Source of the DNA: Azonexus sp.
GTDB lineage: Bacteria; Pseudomonadota; Gammaproteobacteria; Burkholderiales; Rhodocyclaceae
Direction of reading: 5' to 3'
Assembly: GCA_030696345.1 (NCBI GenBank)
Contig: JAUYSK010000016.1
Span: 558,001-622,000, forward strand
DNA length: 64,000 nucleotides
This document shows positions 3,018-18,161 of the stretch, piece after piece (position 1 is the stretch's first letter; each line of letters starts with the position of its first letter). Both the position numbers and the translations under genes were made by a program. The notes under the pieces were generated by a model. It searched no databases and was not told the DNA's origin. It saw only the letters and a program-made list of their open reading frames with translations.

Positions 3018-4694
3018 ATGCGAATTCTTTTTATCACACACAGTTTTAATAGCCTGACGCAACGGCTTTACTCCGAATTGACCGAGCGCGGCCATCAGGT
3101 CAGCATCGAGTTCGATATTGCCGATTCAGTGGCCGAGGAGGCGGTTTCGCTATTCCGGCCCGATCTGATCGTCGCGCCCTTCCTCAAGCGAGCCATTCCC
3201 GAGTCGATCTGGTCACAGCACTGCTGCCTGGTCATTCATCCCGGCATCGTCGGGGATCGTGGCCCGTCGTCGCTAGACTGGGCAATCCATAACGGTCTAC
3301 CGGAATGGGGTGTCACGGTCTTGCAGGCAGAGGCCGAGATGGATGCCGGTCCGGTCTGGGCGTCGGCCAAATTTCCGCTGCGGACAGCGAAAAAATCGTC
3401 GATCTATCGCAATGAAGTGACTGAAGCCTCTGTGCTGGCGGTACTTGCTGCGGTCGACCGCTTTGAAATGGCAAATTTCACGCCGGAACGTGTAGAGGGA
3501 ACGGCATATCCGCTGATGCGGCAGACCAAGCGCAATATTGACTGGCAACAGGAAACCACCGCATCGGTGCTGACCAAGCTGAACGCCGCCGACGGCTTTC
3601 CCGGTGTGGCTGACGAACTGTTCGGCCAGGCCTGCCACCTGTTCGATGCGTGGCCGGAAGCGACGTTCAGGGGCAAACCGGGAAAGCTGCTAGGCCGGCG
3701 CGAAACAGCGATTTTGCGGGCGACCGCCGATGGGGCGGTATGGCTCGGTCACGTTCGTCGCGCCGGTGGTCTCAAACTGCCGGCAACGCTGGCGTTCTCA
3801 GAAGCACTCGAATTGCCCGAACTGCCATTGGCTGACTGCTGGAAATCGCCGACGCCAACCTGGCAGGACATCGCCTACGAAGAAGCCGGCGGTGTCGGCT
3901 TTCTCTCCTTCGAGTTCTACAACGGCGCGATGAGTACGGTGCAATGCCAGCGGCTGACCGAGGCGTTCCGCTGGGCGACAGCGCGGCCGACGCGGGTCAT
4001 CGTGCTGCGCGGCGGCAGTGATTTCTGGTCGAACGGCATTCATCTGAACACCATCGAGGCTGCCGAGAGTCCGGCGGACGAGTCTTGGGCCAACATCAAT
4101 GCCATCGACGATCTGGCCGAAGCCATTTTGTGCTGTGGAACGCAGTTGACCGTAGCAGCGGTGGGTGCCAATGCCGGGGCTGGCGGCTGTTTTCTCGCCC
4201 GCGCCGCGGATTTCGTCTGGGTGCGTGAAGGCGTGATGCTCAACCCGCATTACAAAAATATGGGCAACCTGTTCGGCTCGGAGTTCTGGACCTATCTGTT
4301 ACCGCCGCGCGTCGGTCAGGATGGCGCGCAGGCCATCATGCGCCACCGCCTGCCGATGAGTGCACAGGAATCCGTCAGGCTCGGCTTCTACGATGCCTGC
4401 CTGCCGGGGCCGGGTTTTGCCGTGGATGCAGCGCGGCGTGCCGCTGAACTGGCTGCTGCGCCTGATGTCAGCGAGCGCCTTGCCGCCAAGCAGGCGAAAC
4501 GCGCTGCTGACGAAGCGCTCAAGCCGCTCGCCAGCTATCGCGCCGAAGAACTCCGGGAAATGCGCCGTAACTTCTACGGATTCGATCCTTCTTACCACGT
4601 CGCGCGCTATCATTTCGTCGCGCGCACGCCGCATTCGTGGACGCCGCGCCACCTCGCCAAACATCGTGATCTCGACTGGGAAGTGCCCGAATGA
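3018..4694 (+). CDS. hoxX: Hydrogenase maturation factor HoxX (formyl transferase/enoyl-CoA hydratase fusion)
   Basis: HoxX makes the CO ligand of the [NiFe] site under air, by moving a formyl group from formyl-tetrahydrofolate to CoA and decarbonylating formyl-CoA. The order of domains fits: an N-terminal formyltransferase-like part (VIHPGIVGDRGPSSLDW at about residues 75-90) and a C-terminal crotonase-like part (LRGGSDFWSNGIHLN, then AGAGGCFLARAADF). The length, 558 residues, is typical. I prefer ATG 3018 (MRILFITHSF) by homology; ATG 2994 would add eight residues (MNCKNPPR) and neither has a clear ribosome site. The stop overlaps hoxA by four bases. HoxX usually accompanies hydrogenases made or used under oxygen. 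Confidence 0.93.
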   Translation: MRILFITHSFNSLTQRLYSELTERGHQVSIEFDIADSVAEEAVSLFRPDLIVAPFLKRAIPESIWSQHCCLVIHPGIVGDRGPSSLDWAIHNGLPEWGVTVLQAEAEMDAGPVWASAKFPLRTAKKSSIYRNEVTEASVLAVLAAVDRFEMANFTPERVEGTAYPLMRQTKRNIDWQQETTASVLTKLNAADGFPGVADELFGQACHLFDAWPEATFRGKPGKLLGRRETAILRATADGAVWLGHVRRAGGLKLPATLAFSEALELPELPLADCWKSPTPTWQDIAYEEAGGVGFLSFEFYNGAMSTVQCQRLTEAFRWATARPTRVIVLRGGSDFWSNGIHLNTIEAAESPADESWANINAIDDLAEAILCCGTQLTVAAVGANAGAGGCFLARAADFVWVREGVMLNPHYKNMGNLFGSEFWTYLLPPRVGQDGAQAIMRHRLPMSAQESVRLGFYDACLPGPGFAVDAARRAAELAAAPDVSERLAAKQAKRAADEALKPLASYRAEELREMRRNFYGFDPSYHVARYHFVARTPHSWTPRHLAKHRDLDWEVPE

Positions 4695-6166
4695 CCTCAG
4701 CCAGCCTGCGCCGTCTGCCTGCCCTGCTAGTCGTCGATGACGAGGTGCGCTCACAGGAAGCCTTGCGCCGTACGCTGGAGGAGGATTTCGAGGTCTTCTG
4801 CGCCTCCAGTGCGCTCGAAGGCATGGAAATCCTCGAAAAAGAGCAGTCCACCGCAGCGATTCGCATTGTGCTCTGCGACCAGCGCATGCCCGGCACCACC
4901 GGGGTCGAATTCCTGAAGGATGTCCGTCACCGCTGGCCCGATGTGGTGCGCATCATTCTCTCCGGCTATACCGACGCCGAAGACATCATCACCGGCGTCA
5001 ACGAGGCGGGCATCTGGCAATACCTGTTGAAACCCTGGCAGCCGGAACAATTACTGCTGACCTTGCAGCGCGCCGCCGAAGTCTGGCGGCTGCAACAGGA
5101 AAACCAGCGCCTGTCGCTTGATTTGCGTACCGCCGAGCCGGTGCTCAAAAGGCGGGTCGAGACCAAGCAGGAAAAAGCCAAAACCAACTTCGGGCTGGCC
5201 GGCCTGATCCGCGCCCCGGGCAGCCCGCTCGATGCCGTCTGTGCCCTGGTTCGCCGTGTTGCCCCGTACGACCTGTCGGTGATGGTGACCGGCGAATCAG
5301 GCAGCGGCAAGGAAATGTTTGCCCGCGCCATCCACTACGAGAGTCGTCGCGCCGACAAGGCCTTCATCACCGAAAACTGCGGCGCCCTGCCCGACAGCCT
5401 GCTTGAATCCGAACTCTTCGGCTACAAACGCGGCGCCTTTACCGGTGCGGTCGAGGACCGGATCGGCCTCTTTCAACAGGCCGATGGCGGCACCCTGTTT
5501 CTCGACGAAATCGGCGAAACCAGCCCGGCCTTTCAGGTCAAGCTGCTGCGCGTTTTGCAGGAAGGCGAGTTTCGGCCGCTCGGCAGCAACCGGCCGGTCA
5601 ATGTGGATGTCCGGGTGATTGCCGCGACCAATCGTGATCTTGAGGAAGATGTCCGAACCGGGCGCTTCCGTGAAGATCTGTTTTACCGCCTGGCGACCAT
5701 TTCGCTGCATGTCGCGCCGCTGCGCGAACGTCCGATGGACTTGCCGCTGCTGGCCCGGCGTCTGCTCGAAACCAGTGCCCGTTCGCTCGACAAGGTGGTC
5801 GACGGCTTTAGCGAAAAGGCGCTGGCCGGGCTGGCCGCTTACCACTGGCCAGGCAATGTTCGCGAGTTGCAGAACGAGATTTTGCGCATGGTGGCGCTGG
5901 CCGATGCGCCAAAGCTGGGTGCTGACCTGCTGTCGCCGCGCATTCTTGGCGTCAGGGCCGAAGCCGTGCCGGCGGCACGGAAAGATGATGTCGACGGTTT
6001 GTCAGGTGGCTTGCGCGAGCGCATGGAGCGGCTTGAGCAGCAAGTGTTGCAGGAGTCCATGCAGCGTCACCGGGGTAACAAGTCGCGGGCGGCGCGGGAG
6101 CTCGGGCTGTCACGTGTTGGTCTGCGGGCCAAGCTGGTGCGTTACGGACTGGAGCCGGCCGAATGA
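4691..6166 (+). CDS. hoxA: NtrC-family sigma54-dependent hydrogenase regulator HoxA/HupR
   Basis: This response regulator activates sigma54 promoters of hydrogenase genes. The 491 residues show a receiver domain with phosphoacceptor-position Asp63 (LCDQRMPG), a AAA+ domain with Walker A GESGSGKE (201-208), the sigma54-contacting GAFTGA loop (248-253) and Walker [12 protein letters not shown] (about 266-276), and a Fis-type helix-turn-helix at the end ([20 protein letters not shown]). The start ATG overlaps the hoxX stop and its own stop overlaps hoxB, so it belongs to the hoxXABC unit. In Ralstonia and Rhodobacter its partner is the kinase HoxJ/HupT, and the unphosphorylated form is the active one; here that kinase gene lies at 13776. 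All catalytic motifs look intact. Confidence 0.93.
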
Positions 6167-7158
6167 AAGTCCTCTGGCTGCAAAGCGCTGGCTGTGGTGG
6201 TTGCACGCAATCCATGCTGTGTTCGGCGCCGCGCTCGCTGTTTGACGAGTTGTCCGATGCTGGCATTGAGTTTCTCTGGCACCCAGCCCTTTCGCTCGAG
6301 AGCGGCGAAGAAGCGCTGGCCGTCCTTGAAGGCTGCGCCGAGGGCCGGCTGGCTTTCGACGTGCTCTGCGTTGAAGGCGCCATGCTGCGCGGCCCGAACG
6401 GCAGTGGCAAGTTTCATCTGATGGCGGGCAACGGCCGGCCGCTGACTGAATGGGTAGAACGCCTTTCACGGCAAGCCAAATGGGTCTTTGCCATTGGCTC
6501 TTGCACGGCTTACGGTGGCCTCTCGGCGAGCACGCCGGGAAATCCGCTGGAAGCCTGCGGCCTGCAATACGATACCGATACCCCCGGCGGCCTGCTTGGC
6601 GCTGGTTTTAGATCCAGCGGCGGCCTGCCGGTGGTCAATATCGCCGGCTGCCCGACGCATCCGGGCTGGATCGTCGATACGCTGGAAAAACTGGCGCTGG
6701 AAGGCTTGAGTGCAGCCGATCTTGACGAAGTCGGCCGCCCGTTGCTCTACGCCGACCAACTGGTACACCACGGCTGCGCCCGCAACGAATATTACGAATT
6801 CAAGGCCAGCGCCGAAAAGCATTCTGACCTCGGTTGCCTGATGGAAAACCTCGGTTGCAAGGGCACGCAGGCCCACGCCGACTGTAATCTGCGGCCGTGG
6901 AACGGCAGCGGCTCCTGCCTGCGTGGCGGCTTTGCCTGCATCGCCTGCACAGAGCCGGGTTTCGAATCACCCGGCCACGCCTTTCAGCAAACACCCAAAT
7001 TGGCCGGTATCCCGATCGGCCTGCCGACCGACATGCCCAAGGCCTGGTTCGTGGCGCTGGCTGCACTCTCCAAGTCGGCAACACCAAAGCGGGTGCGCGA
7101 CAACGCAGTGGTCGATCACACGGTGATCCGTCCGGCCGTCAAAAAGGCGGGCAAATGA
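6163..7158 (+). CDS. hoxB: Regulatory [NiFe]-hydrogenase small subunit HoxB/HupU (H2 sensor)
   Basis: Small, electron-relaying subunit of the cytoplasmic H2-sensing hydrogenase. The 331-residue product starts directly at [17 protein letters not shown] with no Tat signal peptide, which separates it from energy-conserving membrane hydrogenases. Ligands for three iron-sulfur clusters are visible: proximal CGGC at 11-14 with later GSCTAYGG and AGCPTHPG; distal HHGCARNEYYEF, LGCLMENLGC; medial DCNLRPW, CLRGGFACIAC. The start overlaps hoxA and the end overlaps hoxC by four bases each. With HoxC it forms the receptor that signals through the HupT/HoxJ kinase. Confidence 0.94.
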   Translation: MKVLWLQSAGCGGCTQSMLCSAPRSLFDELSDAGIEFLWHPALSLESGEEALAVLEGCAEGRLAFDVLCVEGAMLRGPNGSGKFHLMAGNGRPLTEWVERLSRQAKWVFAIGSCTAYGGLSASTPGNPLEACGLQYDTDTPGGLLGAGFRSSGGLPVVNIAGCPTHPGWIVDTLEKLALEGLSAADLDEVGRPLLYADQLVHHGCARNEYYEFKASAEKHSDLGCLMENLGCKGTQAHADCNLRPWNGSGSCLRGGFACIACTEPGFESPGHAFQQTPKLAGIPIGLPTDMPKAWFVALAALSKSATPKRVRDNAVVDHTVIRPAVKKAGK

Positions 7159-8576
7159 AGCGCATCCAGCTCGGGCCATTCAATCGCGTCGAGGGTGATC
7201 TTGAAGTCAGCCTTGATGTTGAGGCCGGACAAGTCGTTTCGGCCCAGGTCAATTCGCCACTCTTTCGCGGCTTCGAGCAAATCCTGATCGGTCGCGCCCC
7301 GGAAGATGCACTGGCCATCGTGCCGCGTATCTGTGGCATCTGCTCGGTCGCCCAGTCGGCGGCAGCCGCTGCCGCCTTGGCCGACATCGCCGGCGTGACG
7401 CCGCCACCCAACGGCCTCCTCGCCCAGAGGTTGATCCAGTCTACCGAAAATCTGGCTGATCACCTGACCCATTTCTACCTCTTTTTCATGCCGGATTTTG
7501 CCCGTTCGGCCTACGCCGGGCGTCACTGGCATGGCGACGTGGCGGCGCGTTTCATGGCCGTCAAGGGCAAGGCTGCGGAGCCGGTCCTGCAGGCACGGGC
7601 GCACTTCTTCAATCTGATCGGTGTTCTTGCCGGACGCTGGCCGCACACATTGGCGCTGCAGGCTGGCGGCACAACCAAGGCGATGACACCTGCCGAGCGC
7701 ATCCGTGTTCTGGCGCTGCTCCGCGAGTTCCGCGCCTTTCTCGAGACAGTCCTGATTGGCGACACGCTGGAATCGTTCGCCTCGCTTAATACCGAACAGG
7801 CTTTGCTTGCCTGGGCGGAAGGACGCAACGCCGACTTCCCGATGTTCCTGCGCGCGGCGGGCGATCTGGCGCTGGAAAAAGCCGGCCGTGCCACTGACTG
7901 CTTCCTTTCCTATGGCGCCTACGGTTTGTTCGAAAGTGGCCTCTGGCAGCCGAATGCTGCGGTCGATACCCTGAAATCGGCAGAAATCACCGAGGATCCC
8001 CGCCATGCCTGGCTGGCCGAGAGTAGCCCGTTGCCGCCCGCCGTCGGAGAAACCATTCTCGACGCCGAAAAATCGGGAGCCTACACCTGGTGCAAGGCAC
8101 CACGCTATGCCGGACAAGTCGTAGAAACCGGGGCGCTAGCCCGGCAGGTTGTGGCCGGTAACCATTTGCTCCGCGATCTGGTCGGTCGCCACGGTGGCAG
8201 CGTCACGGCTCGTGTGGTTGCGCGCATGATCGAACTCGCCAGCGTCTTGCCGGCCATGGAACAGTGGGTGCGCGACATCGTTCCCGGGGAAGCCTTCTGC
8301 TATCCGGCCACGTTGCCGGAATCGGGTGAAGGTGTCGGCCTGGTCGAAGCCGCCCGCGGCAGCCTTGGCCATTGGCTCAGCATCAAACGCGGCCGCATCG
8401 ACCGCTACCAGATCATTGCCCCAACCACCTGGAACTTCTCGCCACGCGATCGTGAAGGTCAGCCCGGCCCCCTCGAACAAGCGCTGGTCGGCCTACCTGC
8501 AGGCGATGGCGCCTTGCCGATTGTCCAGCATGTAGTGCGCTCCTTCGACCCCTGCATGGTCTGTACGGTGCATTAG
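7155..8576 (+). CDS. hoxC: Regulatory [NiFe]-hydrogenase large subunit HoxC/HupV
   Basis: Large subunit holding the Ni-Fe(CN)2CO site of the H2 sensor. The start is ATG 7155 in the four-base overlap with hoxB; the same frame is open upstream within hoxB, but MKRIQLGPFNRVEGDLEV is the family N-terminus. The two nickel-binding cysteine pairs are present: RICGICSVAQS near residue 60 and DPCMVCTVH at the extreme end. The protein stops right after that histidine (473 residues), with no peptide for a maturation endopeptidase to cut, which is typical of HoxC/HupV and not of catalytic hydrogenases. The catalytic hydrogenase genes themselves are not in this window. Confidence 0.95.
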   Translation: MKRIQLGPFNRVEGDLEVSLDVEAGQVVSAQVNSPLFRGFEQILIGRAPEDALAIVPRICGICSVAQSAAAAAALADIAGVTPPPNGLLAQRLIQSTENLADHLTHFYLFFMPDFARSAYAGRHWHGDVAARFMAVKGKAAEPVLQARAHFFNLIGVLAGRWPHTLALQAGGTTKAMTPAERIRVLALLREFRAFLETVLIGDTLESFASLNTEQALLAWAEGRNADFPMFLRAAGDLALEKAGRATDCFLSYGAYGLFESGLWQPNAAVDTLKSAEITEDPRHAWLAESSPLPPAVGETILDAEKSGAYTWCKAPRYAGQVVETGALARQVVAGNHLLRDLVGRHGGSVTARVVARMIELASVLPAMEQWVRDIVPGEAFCYPATLPESGEGVGLVEAARGSLGHWLSIKRGRIDRYQIIAPTTWNFSPRDREGQPGPLEQALVGLPAGDGALPIVQHVVRSFDPCMVCTVH

Positions 8577-12819: not shown

Positions 12820-13269
12820 ATGCGACTAAGCAGCTTTTCCGATTACAGCCTGCGTGTATTGATGTACCTCGGCCTTCACGTCGGGCGCCTGGCGACGATC
12901 AGTGAAATCGCTGGCGCCTACGGCATTTCCGACAATCACCTGACCAAGGTCGTGCATCAGCTCGGCCGCATGGGTTACGTCGAAACCGTGCGGGGCAAGG
13001 GCGGCGGCATCCGGCTGGGCAAAGCCCCGGAAGCAATCCGGCTTGGTGAAGTGATTCGCCAGACTGAGGTGGACTGGGCGCTGGTCGAGTGTTTCTCTAC
13101 GGGTACAAGTTGCCAGATTCAAGCCGCCTGCCGCCTGCCGTCCATTCTCGATGAAGCGCTGGCTGCGATGTTTCTGGTTCTTGATGGCTATACCTTGGCC
13201 GATCTTCTGCAAAGTCCTGAGGGACTGGCGAAAAAAATCCCCTTGCCTGCGCTCGCTCAGCCAGCCTGA
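12820..13269 (+). CDS. nsrR: Rrf2-family nitric oxide sensor repressor NsrR
   Basis: NsrR is a DNA-binding [Fe-S] repressor that lets go of its sites when nitric oxide attacks the cluster. The 149-residue protein has an N-terminal winged helix-turn-helix (SDYSLRVLMYLGLH, then ISEIAGAYGISDNHLTKVVH) and three cysteines in ECFSTGTSCQIQAACRL that can hold the cluster. The spacing is C-x6-C-x5-C, one residue longer at the first gap than in E. coli or Streptomyces NsrR. It has the length and the GYVETVRGKGGGIRL wing of the NsrR branch rather than IscR. It is divergent from ccoG and probably self-regulated through the dyad at 12750-12772. Confidence 0.9.
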   Translation: MRLSSFSDYSLRVLMYLGLHVGRLATISEIAGAYGISDNHLTKVVHQLGRMGYVETVRGKGGGIRLGKAPEAIRLGEVIRQTEVDWALVECFSTGTSCQIQAACRLPSILDEALAAMFLVLDGYTLADLLQSPEGLAKKIPLPALAQPA

Positions 13270-13336: not shown

Positions 13337-13801
13337 ATGGAACGCTTTACCATTTCACTGGACGAATCGCTGGCCAAGCAGTTTGACGAACTGATCGCGG
13401 CGCATGGCTACAGCAACCGTTCGGAAGCCGTGCGTGACCTGATTCGCGGCGCCATCGAGGGCGACCGCCAGCGCGATCCGCAAGCCGGGCATTGCGTCGC
13501 CAATCTTTCCTACGTCTATAACCACCACGAGCGCGAATTGGCCGAGCGGCTGACCGGCTTGCAGCACGACCACCATGATCTGACCGTGGCCGCCATGCAT
13601 AGTCACCTTGATCACGACAATTGCCTGGAAACCGTGATTTTGAAGGGGGCTACCGCAGAAGTCAGGCAATTTGCCAATGAGTTGATGGCCGAGAGCGGCG
13701 TCCGGCACGGCAAGCTCAATGTGATCGCCCTCGAAGCCGAACGCCATCACGCCCACGACGAACACGGCGAAGCCCATGTCCACTACCGTCCAGCCCGTTA
13801 A
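13337..13801 (+). CDS. nikR: Nickel-responsive regulator NikR
   Basis: NikR is a ribbon-helix-helix regulator that binds DNA as a tetramer when loaded with nickel. The 154 residues have the RHH part MERFTISLDESLAKQFDELI and a C-terminal ACT-like metal domain. The nickel ligands of E. coli NikR (H76, H87, H89, C95) map to H77 in GLQHDHHD, H88 and H90 in MHSH and C96 in HDNC. A His-rich tail (EAERHHAHDEHGEAHVHY) is extra. ATG 13337 is preferred over the in-frame TTG just before it. The gene sits behind a sigma54-type promoter and overlaps hupT by 26 bases, so nickel and hydrogen control are produced together. A dyad resembling a NikR site occurs before the nickel permease. Confidence 0.94.
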   Translation: MERFTISLDESLAKQFDELIAAHGYSNRSEAVRDLIRGAIEGDRQRDPQAGHCVANLSYVYNHHERELAERLTGLQHDHHDLTVAAMHSHLDHDNCLETVILKGATAEVRQFANELMAESGVRHGKLNVIALEAERHHAHDEHGEAHVHYRPAR

Positions 13802-15122
13802 CAGTCCATTGGGGGCAGCGTCGGACGGCCTCGGCGAGCAGGCCTGGATCGAGGTCATCCAGAAAATGGACGAGGTCTACAACGACCTCCTCCAGTACGA
13901 AGTGGCGCTGGAAGAAAAAAACGCGGCGCTCGAGGATTCGCACCAGTTCATCGAGAGTGTGCTGGCCTCGATGTCGGACATCCTGATCGTCTGTGACCGC
14001 AACGGCAACATTGAAGAAGTGAATACCTCGCTCTGCCATTTTGCCGGTCAGGAGGCCGAAGCCCTCGAAAAAACGCCGGTATTCAACCTGTTTGCCGACG
14101 ATATCGAGCGGGCCAAGGCGCGTGAGGTTTTCGCCCGCTTTGGACGCGAAGGCGTGCACGATTGTGAGTTCTTTTTACGGGCTGGCGACGGGTCTACCGT
14201 ACCGGTCTCGATGAACTGCACGCCTCGTTTGTCGCAAACCGGCAAATTGATGGGCATGGTGGTGACCGGCCGTCCGGTCGGCGAACTGCGCCGGGCCTAT
14301 CAGGCACTACGCCAGGCGCATGAAGATTTGAAGCGGACGCAAAGCCAGTTGCTGCATGCCGAAAAGATGGTTTCGCTCGGCCGCTTGGTGGCCGGCGTGG
14401 CGCACGAATTGAACAATCCGATCAGTTTTGTGCTGGGCAATGTGCTGTCGCTGAAACGTTACGCTCAACGCCTGGAAGGCTATCTCAATGCGGTGCATAC
14501 CAGTGATGCAGCGGACGACGAGGCGCTCAAGGTTATGCGCCAGGAATTGCGCATCGACCGCATTGTCGCCGACATGCCACACCTGATTGACGGCATGATC
14601 GAGGGCGCCGAGCGGACACGCGATATCGTCGATGCCTTGAAGCGCTTTTCGGCCGTGGACAAGATGACGCCCGAGCAGGTCAGCCTGAACGAAGTGGTGG
14701 AACGCTCGGTGCGCTGGGTGGTGCAAAGCGCCGCGGCTCGATTTTCCGTCGATATCGATCTGCCTCCGGGATTGGTCTGTACCGGATCCTCCGGGCAGTT
14801 GCAGCAGGTAGTGATGAATCTTGTGCAGAATGCCTGCGACGCAACGACCAATCGCCCCGAAGCGGCGCTGAAAATCACCGGTAGCGTCGAGAACGGCATG
14901 GTTTGCCTGCGATTTGTCGATAGCGGACCGGGCATTTCGGCTGAACATCTTGATCGTCTGTTTGAGCCATTTTTTACCACCAAGCCGGTTGGTCAGGGTA
15001 CCGGGCTGGGCTTGTCGATCAGCTATGGCATCGTTGAACGGCATGGCGGCAAGCTGGAGGCGGCCAATCTGCCGGGGGACGGAGCGGAATTCATTCTTTC
15101 ACTGCCGGTGGAAAGTCACTGA
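13776..15122 (+). CDS. hupT: Hydrogenase sensor histidine kinase HupT/HoxJ
   Basis: This soluble kinase relays the H2 signal from the HoxBC sensor to HoxA/HupR. The 448 residues lack membrane segments and hold a PAS domain (about 60-165), an H-box with phosphoacceptor His210 in SLGRLVAGVAHELNNPISF, and a HATPase domain with the N box VMNLVQNACDA, DSGPGIS and GTGLGLSIS. The sequence around the H-box, continuing to a long run before the ATPase, is that of HupT. The start at 13776 overlaps the end of nikR by 26 bases, so the two are probably translated together. In most species this gene stands beside hoxBC; here it is about 5 kb away. Confidence 0.88.
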   Translation: MSTTVQPVNSPLGAASDGLGEQAWIEVIQKMDEVYNDLLQYEVALEEKNAALEDSHQFIESVLASMSDILIVCDRNGNIEEVNTSLCHFAGQEAEALEKTPVFNLFADDIERAKAREVFARFGREGVHDCEFFLRAGDGSTVPVSMNCTPRLSQTGKLMGMVVTGRPVGELRRAYQALRQAHEDLKRTQSQLLHAEKMVSLGRLVAGVAHELNNPISFVLGNVLSLKRYAQRLEGYLNAVHTSDAADDEALKVMRQELRIDRIVADMPHLIDGMIEGAERTRDIVDALKRFSAVDKMTPEQVSLNEVVERSVRWVVQSAAARFSVDIDLPPGLVCTGSSGQLQQVVMNLVQNACDATTNRPEAALKITGSVENGMVCLRFVDSGPGISAEHLDRLFEPFFTTKPVGQGTGLGLSISYGIVERHGGKLEAANLPGDGAEFILSLPVESH

Positions 15123-15188
15123 TCACTTTTGCGTGTTTTGCGCATGCCGCGATTTCAACAAGCTAATTCGAACAATGACTTATTGCGT

Positions 15189-15204
15189 TGGCACGCAACT
15201 TGTA
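15189..15204 (+). promoter_or_regulatory. Sigma54 -24/-12 promoter of the nickel permease
   Basis: TGGCACGCAACTTGTA agrees with the consensus TGGCACG-N4-TTGCA at every position but one (GT for GC at -12). GG is at 15190-15191. It lies 34 bases before the permease start. HoxA, encoded at 4691, is the likely activator. Confidence 0.55.
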
Positions 15205-15228
15205 TGAAGATTGTAAAAACGTTCATAC
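15202..15228. promoter_or_regulatory. NikR operator-like dyad over the nickel permease promoter
   Basis: Perfect half-sites GTATGA (15202-15207) and TCATAC (15223-15228) are 15 bases apart; the E. coli nik operator has the same half-sites 16 bases apart. The left half overlaps the -12 element of the sigma54 promoter and the right half ends 9 bases before the ATG, so bound NikR would block transcription when nickel is plentiful. Confidence 0.6.
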
Positions 15229-15237
15229 AGGCCTCCC

Positions 15238-16047
15238 ATGGAAACCTTGCCTACTGACTGGTTGTCGCTGCTGATCCTGACTTTTGTGCTCGGCATGAAG
15301 CATGGTTTCGATGCCGACCATCTGGCGACCATTGATGGTTTGACCCGTTACAACGCCCGTACCCGGCCGGGTTTGGCGCGCTATTGCGGCACGCTTTTTT
15401 CCCTGGGACATGGCGCGGTAGTGATGGCGATTGCGCTCGGTGTTTCGGCCATTGCTGGTCACTGGGAGGTGCCCGAGTGGTTCGGTACGCTGGGCTCGGT
15501 GATTTCCATAGTTTTCCTTGTTGCGCTGGGCAGCCTGAATCTGGCCGCCGTGTTGCGTGCCGGGCCGGATGAGGTAGTGCAGCCGGTCGGCCTCAAGGGC
15601 AAGCTTCTTGGCAACCTGCGCCACGTCTCGCATCCGGCGCTGGTGGCGCTGGTTGGTGCGCTGTTTGCGCTCTCCTTCGATACCCTTTCCCAGGCCGCCT
15701 TCTTTGCGCTCACCGCCACCCAGTTTGGTGGCTGGGAGCATGCCTTGGTCCTCGCGCTGCTTTTCATGCTCGGCATGTTGTTGACCGATGGCATCAACGG
15801 GCTGTGGATTGCCCGGCTGATCGCCCGGGCTGATCAGGTGGCGCTGGTCGCGTCGCGGGTCATGGGGCTGGTTGTTTCCGGGATCAGTCTGCTGGTCGCG
15901 GCTTTCGGTGCTGCCAAGATGGTGTCGCCGGCCGTCGATGCCTGGAGCGAGGGCAAGGAACTGGTATTCGGTTTCACGCTGGTGGCGATCATCGCCCTCA
16001 GTTTTATTGCAGCGGTACGTCTTACTCGCCGGCCATTGTTGGCCTGA
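15238..16047 (+). CDS. High-affinity nickel/cobalt permease, NiCoT family (HoxN/NixA type)
   Basis: An inner-membrane secondary transporter for Ni2+ (or Co2+), supplying the hydrogenase metal centre. The family signature HGFDADH is at residues 22-28 in the first membrane segment, followed by LATIDGLTR; a second NiCoT block is SFDTLSQAAFFALT. The 269 residues form six to eight membrane helices and are shorter than HoxN of Ralstonia, closer to the compact NiCoT branch. The start ATG 15238 follows a region holding a sigma54 promoter and a NikR-like dyad. It lies after hupT and before a TonB-dependent receptor. Nickel rather than cobalt is inferred from the company of nikR and the hox genes. Confidence 0.92.
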   Translation: METLPTDWLSLLILTFVLGMKHGFDADHLATIDGLTRYNARTRPGLARYCGTLFSLGHGAVVMAIALGVSAIAGHWEVPEWFGTLGSVISIVFLVALGSLNLAAVLRAGPDEVVQPVGLKGKLLGNLRHVSHPALVALVGALFALSFDTLSQAAFFALTATQFGGWEHALVLALLFMLGMLLTDGINGLWIARLIARADQVALVASRVMGLVVSGISLLVAAFGAAKMVSPAVDAWSEGKELVFGFTLVAIIALSFIAAVRLTRRPLLA

Positions 16048-16069
16048 TTCGTCTTTTCAGAGGAGGGGG

Positions 16070-16089
16070 GCCGGGTCGCCGGCTTTTTT
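16070..16089 (+). terminator. Rho-independent terminator after the nickel permease
   Basis: GCCGG, loop GTCG, CCGGC is followed by six T. It lies 23 bases after the permease stop and ends only 5 bases before the receptor start codon, so it may also limit read-through into the receptor gene. Confidence 0.65.
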
Positions 16090-16094
16090 AAAGC

Positions 16095-18161
16095 ATGCAA
16101 TTAAGACAAAAATTAATTAGTTCATACATACTGCTTGCCGTAAGCGCAGCAATGGCTCACGAATCCGTCGAACTGACTGCTGTCGAAGTCCGTGCCAGGG
16201 CGGAAAATCTCGAAGGCATTGCTGCGGCCGGTAGTGAAGGCGTGGTTTCCAGTCAGCGTCTGGCTGCCGTGCCTATCCTGCGTCCCGGCGAGGCACTCGA
16301 AATGGTGCCGGGCCTGATCGTCACGCAGCACGCTGGTGACGGCAAGGCCAATCAGTATTTCCTGCGCGGGTTCAATCTTGATCACGGCACTGATTTCGCA
16401 ACCTACGTTGGTGGCGTGCCGGTCAATATGCCGACCCATGCTCATGGTCAGGGCTATACCGACCTCAATTTTCTGATTCCAGAACTGGTCGACCGCATCA
16501 GTTTCCGCAAGGGACCGTATTACGCCGAAGAAGGTGACTTTTCTTCGGCCGGGGCGGCGCATATCGACTATTTCCGCAAGATCGAAGGCACGCTGGCCGA
16601 TGTAACACTGGGGCAGCGTGGTTATGCGCGAAGTTTGCTGGCTGGCTCCCCGGCGTTGGGTGGCGGCAATCTGCTTTATGGCCTGGAGGTGTTTCACAAC
16701 GATGGGCCGTGGCAGGTGCATGAAAACTACCGCAAGCTGAATGGCATTCTGCGCTACAGCCAAGGCACGCGCCATGACGGCTGGTCGGTGACCGGGATGG
16801 CGTACCAGGGGCGTTGGACCTCAACCGACCAGATTGCCCGGCGGGCCATCGACAGCGGCGCGGTTGACCGCTTTGGCACGCTGGATTCGACCACTGGCGG
16901 ACAAACCTTCCGACACAGCCTTTCTGGCGAATGGGCAAAACGTGGCGAGAACAGCCAGAGCAAGGCCAAGGCTTGGTGGCTGCGCTCCGGCCTCGATCTG
17001 TGGTCGAATTTCCAGTACTGCCAGAACGACTTTGCAGCCAACGGTAATTGCGCCATCGGTGACCAGTTCAAACAGGGCGAACGACGCCAGGCTGGCGGTT
17101 TTGCGTTGTCGCAAACCCTGTATGACCGCTGGGGCAGCTTCGATGTCCGGAATGCTTTCGGGCTGCAGGGGCGAATGGACCGCCTGAGGCCGGTAGGGCT
17201 CTACAACACCAGCCAGCGCAATACCTGGAATACGGTCCGCGAGGACAACGTCACCCAGCGCAGCCTGTCACTGTGGGCGCAAAACGAAATCCGCTGGACT
17301 TCATGGTTTCGTTCGATTCAAGGTTTGCGTGGCGATGCTTATGACTTCACGGTGGATTCCAGTCTGGCCGCCAATTCCGGCCAGGCCAGCGACCAGATGG
17401 TGACACCGAAGCTCTCCCTCGTTTTCGGACCTTGGCGGCGTACTGAGCTTTACCTCAACTATGGCCATGGTTTTCACTCCAATGATGCTCGCGGTACGAC
17501 GATTTCTGTGGATCCCGCCGATGGCGTGACGCCGGTTACCAAGGTCAAACCGCTGGTCCGCACCAAGGGCTACGAAATTGGCTTGCGTTCGGAAATTGTG
17601 CCTGGATGGCAGTCCACCGTAGCACTCTGGCAACTTGAGGCCGCGTCGGAACTGCTCTTCGTTGGCGACGCTGGTACGACCGAACCTTCACGCCCGTCCC
17701 GTCGCCATGGCCTGGAGTGGACCAACTTTTATGCGGTGAATGACTGGCTGGCATTCGACGCCGATCTTGCCTGGTCGCATGCCCGCTTTCGTGATGCTGA
17801 TCCCGCTGGCAACTACATTCCGGGTGCTGTCGCTAGCACTGCCAATCTTGGTGTCACCGTTGGCCAGTTTGGTCCCTGGTTCGGCGCTTTGCGCTTGCGC
17901 TACTTCGGCCCTCGCCCGCTGATCGAAGATAACTCGGTGCGCTCGCAGGCATCGGCGCTGACCAACCTGCGTGTCGGCTACCGCTTTTCCAGGCAGACGC
18001 AAGTCTTGTTGGACGTCTATAACCTGTTCGACCGAAAGGTGAATGACATCGAATACTGGTACGAATCACAGTTGGCCAACGAGACATCGCCGGTGTCCGA
18101 TCGCCACGTTCACCCAACTGAACCACGCACTTTGCGTCTGAGTATTTCACATCGTTTCTAG
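16095..18161 (+). CDS. TonB-dependent outer-membrane receptor, possibly for nickel
   Basis: A 688-residue receptor with a short signal peptide (MQLRQKLISSYILLAVSAAMA), a plug domain (LEMVPGLIVTQHAGDGKANQ, YFLRGFNLDHGTDFATYV) and a beta-barrel ending in an aromatic residue (SISHRF), as needed for outer-membrane insertion. The plug has a histidine-bearing loop PTHAHGQGYTD that could take part in metal binding. The gene starts just after the terminator of the nickel permease. Given that neighbour and nikR, nickel or a nickel chelate is a reasonable ligand, but nothing in the barrel proves it. No clear ribosome site precedes ATG 16095. The tonB gene at 50709 could energise it. Confidence 0.88.
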   Translation: MQLRQKLISSYILLAVSAAMAHESVELTAVEVRARAENLEGIAAAGSEGVVSSQRLAAVPILRPGEALEMVPGLIVTQHAGDGKANQYFLRGFNLDHGTDFATYVGGVPVNMPTHAHGQGYTDLNFLIPELVDRISFRKGPYYAEEGDFSSAGAAHIDYFRKIEGTLADVTLGQRGYARSLLAGSPALGGGNLLYGLEVFHNDGPWQVHENYRKLNGILRYSQGTRHDGWSVTGMAYQGRWTSTDQIARRAIDSGAVDRFGTLDSTTGGQTFRHSLSGEWAKRGENSQSKAKAWWLRSGLDLWSNFQYCQNDFAANGNCAIGDQFKQGERRQAGGFALSQTLYDRWGSFDVRNAFGLQGRMDRLRPVGLYNTSQRNTWNTVREDNVTQRSLSLWAQNEIRWTSWFRSIQGLRGDAYDFTVDSSLAANSGQASDQMVTPKLSLVFGPWRRTELYLNYGHGFHSNDARGTTISVDPADGVTPVTKVKPLVRTKGYEIGLRSEIVPGWQSTVALWQLEAASELLFVGDAGTTEPSRPSRRHGLEWTNFYAVNDWLAFDADLAWSHARFRDADPAGNYIPGAVASTANLGVTVGQFGPWFGALRLRYFGPRPLIEDNSVRSQASALTNLRVGYRFSRQTQVLLDVYNLFDRKVNDIEYWYESQLANETSPVSDRHVHPTEPRTLRLSISHRF

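Follow-up and report, generated by a model that had tools for sequence, protein, structure and literature searches.

Genes and promoter elements at the locus

The window, by which we mean the whole 64,000-nucleotide stretch analyzed, encodes HoxA, HoxB, HoxC, HoxJ, and NikR homologues, together with a NicO-family permease whose upstream region carries the promoter studied here. The relevant features are as follows:

4691..6166, + strand: hoxA, a sigma54-type activator with receiver, sigma54-interaction, and Fis-type domains (Pfam; 58% to its pHG1 counterpart)
6163..7158, + strand: hoxB, regulatory hydrogenase small subunit (Pfam; 67% to its pHG1 counterpart)
7155..8576, + strand: hoxC, regulatory hydrogenase large subunit (homology from about 7155; frame open from 6897)
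13337..13801, + strand: nikR, the sole NikR_C match of the genome
13776..15122, + strand: hoxJ (HupT-like), a PAS histidine kinase (Pfam, homology)
15170..15185, + strand: GAACAATGACTTATTG, a conserved block specific to the genus and beginning 19 nt upstream of the -24 element; candidate activator contact site
15189..15204, + strand: sigma54-type -24/-12 element TGGCACG-CAAC-TTGTA (TGGCACG at 15189-15195, TTGTA at 15200-15204)
15202..15228, + strand: NikR-type operator GTATGA-N15-TCATAC (GTATGA at 15202-15207, TCATAC at 15223-15228)
15238..16047, + strand: NicO-family permease of 269 aa, starting at ATG 15238 (Pfam NicO, 3.6e-16)
16095..18161, + strand: TonB-dependent receptor (Pfam)

The open-reading-frame list starts nikR at TTG 13334, and homology begins at ATG 13337; an alignment with E. 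coli NikR (1q5v; E = 3.4e-35) covers residues 2-131 of the 155 encoded. The nikR and hoxJ reading frames overlap by 26 bp just upstream of the promoter and presumably share one transcript. HoxJ finds its best plasmid matches in two C. necator H16 records (53.5% identity over 96%), and on C. necator pHG1 the counterpart kinase has the regulatory hydrogenase large subunit on one side and a HoxN-family transporter (hoxN) on the other. The order hoxA-hoxB-hoxC-nikR-hoxJ-permease recurs in another genome of the same genus (G014) and in one from another family (G058). A published table of D. aromatica hydrogenase genes includes a 448-aa HupT and a 269-aa HoxN/HupN/NixA transporter (PMC2907700). Directly 5' of nikR, an Rrf2-family regulator (12820-13269) is also present in some, not all, of the relatives fetched.

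The permease passes the Pfam NicO cut-off and matches the NCBIfam HoxN/NicT models only under theirs; its family, its neighbors, and its promoter point to nickel as the likely substrate. The TonB-dependent receptor is probably its outer-membrane partner. Between the two genes, a GC-rich hairpin followed by a T run (16064-16127) sits just before the receptor ATG (16095). It recurs, by eye, in 14 of 19 same-genus loci, has a fold z of -1.2, and is absent from the terminator-scan list; tentatively, it may attenuate read-through from permease to receptor. The leader codons of the receptor (16101-16127) also hold a weak dyad-like sequence, TTAAGA-N15-TCATAC, with two mismatches here and two to four in 16 relatives.

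One base run shared by a sigma54-type -12 element and a NikR-type half-site

The first-pass annotation of this DNA had described TGGCACG-N4-TTGTA, directly overlapped by GTATGA-N15-TCATAC, ahead of a nickel permease gene; both the letters and their coordinates were confirmed. The bases G-T-A are common to the -12 element and the first half-site of the dyad, and the dyad starts 13 nt past the -24 start wherever both elements occur among 26 same-genus loci. The dyad is an exact 27-bp inverted repeat of the form GTATGA...TCATAC, within the 27-28 bp of NikR operators. It was also correct that the half-sites are those of E. coli NikR with one base less of spacing, the E. coli operator having N16 (PMC7055735).

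The two elements differ in how well each stands out. With spacings of 14 to 18 allowed, the window has a single dyad and 100 shuffles gave none, and no second place with at most one mismatch to the N15 form was among those listed for the 3.96-Mb genome. At up to three mismatches the genome holds 513 places, against 395 for the reversed control, and no second NikR target was found among these 513. Nor was a NikR site found before nikR itself, where the best of three spacings has four mismatches. In 1,040 shuffled upstream regions the N15 dyad never appeared at one mismatch or fewer, whereas the -24/-12 element appeared 101 times at two or fewer and once exactly. Taken alone, the -24/-12 pattern is at chance level in the window (34 sites at up to two mismatches vs. 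34.9 expected). It is not significant on scanning; its support is comparative.

Sigma54 promoters have GG at -24 and GC at -12 at a fixed spacing, with TTGC as the -12 consensus. The GG and the spacing are present here, and the -12 reads GT rather than GC. This one-base departure is itself conserved: TTGT stands in place of TTGC in all 19 same-genus loci whose genomes encode HoxC, as the shared half-site requires. In G024, a genome that has lost NikR, the -12 is still TTGT.

The dyad follows NikR and the -24/-12 element follows Hox

A protein search of 60 genomes, that of the window included, gave 34 with a permease match, of which 26 were same-genus loci, four were distant, and four were weak or fragmentary. 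Only the 26 loci, chosen by protein alone and including the window's own, were scored, each over 160 bp of upstream sequence, for the N15 dyad (at most one mismatch) and for TGGCAYG-N4-TTGY (at most two mismatches). HoxC was called present above a threshold of 500 bits, which was our choice.

Each element tracked its own regulator. The dyad was found in 21/21 NikR-positive and 0/5 NikR-negative genomes (Fisher 1.5e-5, relatedness ignored), and the -24/-12 element in 19/19 HoxC-positive and 1/7 HoxC-negative loci (Fisher 3.0e-5, relatedness ignored). Crossed comparisons were weaker, at 0.062 for the -24/-12 element by NikR and 0.010 for the dyad by HoxC. The -24/-12 pattern was exact in 18 of the 26 loci, had one mismatch in two, and three or more in six. 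Nine positions, namely T, G, G, C, A in the -24 part and T, T, G, T in the -12 part, are the same in all 19 HoxC-positive loci; in the spacer, each of the four columns reaches 10-11 of 19. HoxA is encoded in 18 of the 19 HoxC-positive and none of the 7 HoxC-negative genomes.

Genomes with one regulator separate the two elements. Three that retain NikR and lack Hox (G019, G020, and G022) keep the dyad, at N15 with one mismatch, and have no -24/-12 element; G024, with Hox and no NikR, keeps the -24/-12 element and has no dyad. The expectation that the dyad would follow NikR and not Hox, and the -24/-12 element the Hox hydrogen-sensing system rather than NikR, thus held in these comparisons. The promoter co-occurs with HoxA, HoxJ, and HoxBC, as a member of the HoxA regulon would, with two exceptions: G004 has a one-mismatch -24/-12 element and no Hox (genome 79% complete), and G032 has HoxC and the promoter with no HoxA match, its hoxB match ending at a contig end. 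Two genomes (G005 and G007; loci L100 and L101) additionally encode a second, distant NikR elsewhere, at about 27% identity.

Relatedness limits these co-occurrence statistics, since independent pairs on well-supported branches of the permease tree number two for NikR and three for Hox, too few for significance. The fewest changes on that tree are four each for NikR and the dyad, and six for HoxC against five for the -24/-12 element. Many scores of regulator absence come from incomplete genomes (G003 76%, G004 79%, G019 86%, G020 74%, G022 74%, and G024 89%), and only G018 (99%) and G034 (100%) are near-complete among those lacking a regulator.

A conserved block upstream of the -24 element

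The block at 15170-15185 occurs, at up to three mismatches, in 15/19 HoxC-positive and 0/7 HoxC-negative loci, and is absent from the other four HoxC-positive ones. No other copy within two mismatches was found in the window's genome. A recognized HoxA site was not identified at the promoter. The HupR site is TTG-N5-CAA; just two of the 26 loci, L020 and L027, have one overlapping the -24 element, and it was set aside. An IHF site, judged by eye against the consensus, does not fit the block. In G013 and G032 (upstream regions L034 and L035), which carry a divergent Hox system (HoxC at 58% and 55% identity), the block position holds a different, mutually similar sequence, as if the block had changed with the activator.

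The composite promoter precedes several kinds of uptake gene

To place the fused element in a wider context, we scanned one genome per species across 84,980 species for exact matches to TGGCRYG-N4-TTGTATGA-N14..17-TCATAC; this set may omit records of the window's own genome. It returned 51 composites, 50 with N15 and one, in Oryzomicrobium, with N16; N14 and N17 were allowed and did not occur. N15 is therefore the rule for this promoter and not a peculiarity of the window site. Carriers include Dechloromonas, Azonexus, Zoogloea, Sulfuricella, Ideonella, Curvibacter, and Piscinibacter, and some genomes are shared with those of the permease protein search, so that the two sets are not independent. 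The fetched stretches measure 3-8 kb, and 36 of the 51 include a nikR match. The promoter is a minority trait in the order: Among 399 sampled genomes, the window's included, 11 match at up to two mismatches, seven of these at zero or one, and the reversed-pattern control gave none in the rows listed.

Composites stand directly before nickel-permease (NicO/NiCoT), TonB-receptor, or nikL-type genes in 49 of the 51 cases. NicO relatives follow 42 of them, identified either by tblastn with the permease of the window as query or from the frames themselves. One, in Pseudomonas putida 31800, precedes a 353-aa NicO-family protein (Pfam 2e-98) and is itself preceded by hoxC-, nikR-, and hoxJ-like genes. 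Five composites, all in other genomes, precede homologues of the TonB receptor, two of which were run on Pfam; in four genomes (SZAS-76, SZAS-77, SZAS-78, and Zoogloea LCSB751), NicO and a TonB receptor each have a copy of their own. Outside the 49 are L169, whose slice stops short of the downstream gene and whose contig equals in length the permease-bearing contig of G013, and L140 (Terriglobia), where no uptake-type gene follows and the composite is probably a chance match.

A third kind of gene set appears where the permease is missing. Six same-genus genomes have NikR and HoxJ matches and no intact permease match (G006, G008, G023, G027, G028, and G030). In four of them (G006, G008, G027, and G030) the same promoter comes after hoxJ, with GGGCAYG at -24, an N15 dyad at zero to one mismatch, and the block ACAATGACTTAT; behind it, in 4/4, lies an operon with DUF4198 first and CbiM later. 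In G006, where this was tested, an ABC ATPase is also present, and the second gene is NikL-like. The DUF4198/NikL-like/CbiM/ABC ATPase set is the make-up of NikKMLQO-type nickel systems, a type named in the accessible text of an earlier study (PMC2667541). A similar arrangement came from the species scan: The L146 composite precedes a NikL-family protein (NCBIfam 8e-11, under cut-off) that matches the second gene of the G006 operon at 32%, and the next frames read like CbiM and an ABC ATPase. Of the remaining two genomes, G028 has its promoter stretch masked by N, and G023 (L096) shows, after hoxJ, a decayed permease, a dyad kept with one mismatch, a lost -24, and a TonB receptor remaining behind.

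A hydrogenase promoter in the window's genome offers a comparison. At C13:539357, TGGCACG-N4-TTGCG, one mismatch from the consensus used, lies 59 bp before a [NiFe]-hydrogenase small-subunit gene (Pfam), with the large subunit next. It has no GTATGA half-site at -12. The hydrogenase thus seems to receive only the activating signal, with a NikR veto added to that signal for nickel uptake. We had considered the 15170-15185 block as a feature common to both promoters; no copy was found at the hydrogenase promoter.

A proposed two-signal promoter and its alternatives

What the sequences show directly is that the elements are present, how they are spaced, and that one co-occurs with NikR and the other with Hox. 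On this basis we consider it highly probable that the permease promoter integrates two signals, turned on through HoxA and sigma54 and turned off by nickel-loaded NikR competing at the -12 element. Sigma54-RNA polymerase would sit at -24/-12 and be opened by HoxA, the likely activator, with transcription predicted to start near 15215. By analogy with C. necator, H2 sensed by HoxBC would keep HoxJ from phosphorylating HoxA and so leave HoxA active. Ni-NikR would bind the 27-bp dyad, whose first half-site shares bases with the -12, and by covering about -13 to +14 would exclude the polymerase. The importer would then be made when H2 is present and nickel is short. The earlier proposal of an AND gate with hydrogen acting through HoxA and nickel through NikR is supported to the extent that each half held in its own comparative-genomics test; put strictly, the supported logic would be "H2 AND NOT Ni."

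The C. necator model is documented in the accessible portions of two articles: Without H2, HoxJ phosphorylates and thereby inactivates HoxA, HoxBC relieves this when H2 is present, and sigma54 forms a second level of control (PMC11540253, PMC10073562). The window HoxJ reads GTGLGLSI at a motif that is GTGLSLSI in C. necator H16; we equate this G-for-S position with residue 422, published as inactivating.

The activating half of this scheme depends on the identity of the activator and of the sigma factor. A genuine -24/-12 element might be opened by another sigma54 activator, NtrC- or NifA-like, with nitrogen or redox rather than hydrogen as the signal. When HoxA relatives were sought loosely, the window's genome yielded 102 candidates, the promoter has no recognized HoxA site, and D. 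aromatica hydrogenases are discussed under nitrogen fixation (PMC2907700). However, in a co-occurrence comparison that covered HoxA/HoxC and NikR, the element is kept in 19/19 HoxC-positive loci and lost in 6/7 HoxC-negative ones; hoxJ lies directly upstream of the promoter, and a matching element precedes the hydrogenase small-subunit gene in this genome, so we judge another activator unlikely, while granting it some weight. An ordinary NikR-repressed sigma70 promoter with an accidental -24/-12 likeness seems hardly credible. Such likenesses are indeed common by chance, and the three NikR-positive relatives without the element must be served by another promoter type. Against this stand the tracking of Hox rather than NikR, the nine positions invariant in 19 HoxC-positive loci that were not picked by motif, and, as a weak point given that shuffles average 0.5, the count of zero sigma70-type matches at 15050-16150.

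The repressing half could be read differently if another regulator bound the dyad, or if NikR activated transcription or trapped bound polymerase instead of excluding it. A dyad that spans the -12 and the predicted start would also permit trapping, and H. pylori NikR is described as able to activate as well as repress (PMC9860126). Against these readings, the half-sites of the dyad are those of E. coli NikR (PMC7055735), the window NikR aligns with E. coli NikR over residues 2-131, and dyad presence follows NikR in 26/26 loci. We regard this group of readings as quite improbable and retain competition between Ni-NikR and sigma54-RNA polymerase as the preferred account.

On a broader scale, we lean, with modest confidence, toward the view that the fused cassette, in which one base run serves as both -12 and repressor half-site, has been selected as a unit making nickel uptake depend on hydrogen. 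Across several betaproteobacterial lineages and one Pseudomonas, it would have been kept or regained before three unrelated kinds of uptake genes—a NicO/NiCoT permease, a TonB receptor, and a NikKMLQO-like ABC system—with the upstream genus-specific block as the proximal HoxA contact site. If so, a single promoter would couple the supply of a cofactor metal to the cue that hydrogenase, the consumer of that metal, is required, and the metal itself would hold a veto. Genomes that carry both regulators, one, or neither, with varied transporters behind the same promoter, form a natural series in which repressor block of a sigma54 promoter is directly testable.

Comparison with known systems

Among the closest known systems, the E. 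coli nikABCDE operator (GTATGA-N16-TCATAC) has identical half-sites and places a nickel-responsive repressor beside an importer gene (PMC7055735); the window operator differs in having N15 and in being fused with a sigma54 -12, and composites of this kind are found ahead of NicO, TonB-receptor, or NikKMLQO-like genes rather than nikABCDE. For the N15 spacing there are precedents: NikR signals of 27-28 bp have been published, including a 27-bp GTATGAT-N13-ATCATAC with the spacing seen here (PMC545781). NikR control of NiCoT and nikMNQO genes has likewise been predicted, and the accessible portions of those articles mention no sigma54 or hydrogen-sensing control (PMC2667541, PMC545781).

The HoxBC-HoxJ-HoxA system of C. 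necator shares homologous regulators and the order hoxA-hoxB-hoxC-hoxJ-nickel permease; the pHG1 record gives functions, and the hox names are ours or come from papers. It differs in that no NikR gene is listed between hoxC and hoxJ on pHG1, the region upstream of hoxN has no dyad and at best a -24/-12 with three mismatches, and the permease is only 28% identical to that of the window. Upstream of hoxN on Paraburkholderia aromaticivorans pBN2, we similarly found no good -24/-12 and no dyad. Hydrogen-linked expression of a nickel permease nevertheless has a precedent in C. necator, where hoxN1 is reported to rise by log2 3.5 on H2/CO2 (PMC12271211), though no good -24/-12 was found there. A search of the open-access literature, in its accessible portions, gave no description of the fused sigma54/NikR architecture, and an earlier one may exist elsewhere. 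What we regard as new is the fusion of these known parts, the N15 spacing among them, and its conservation.
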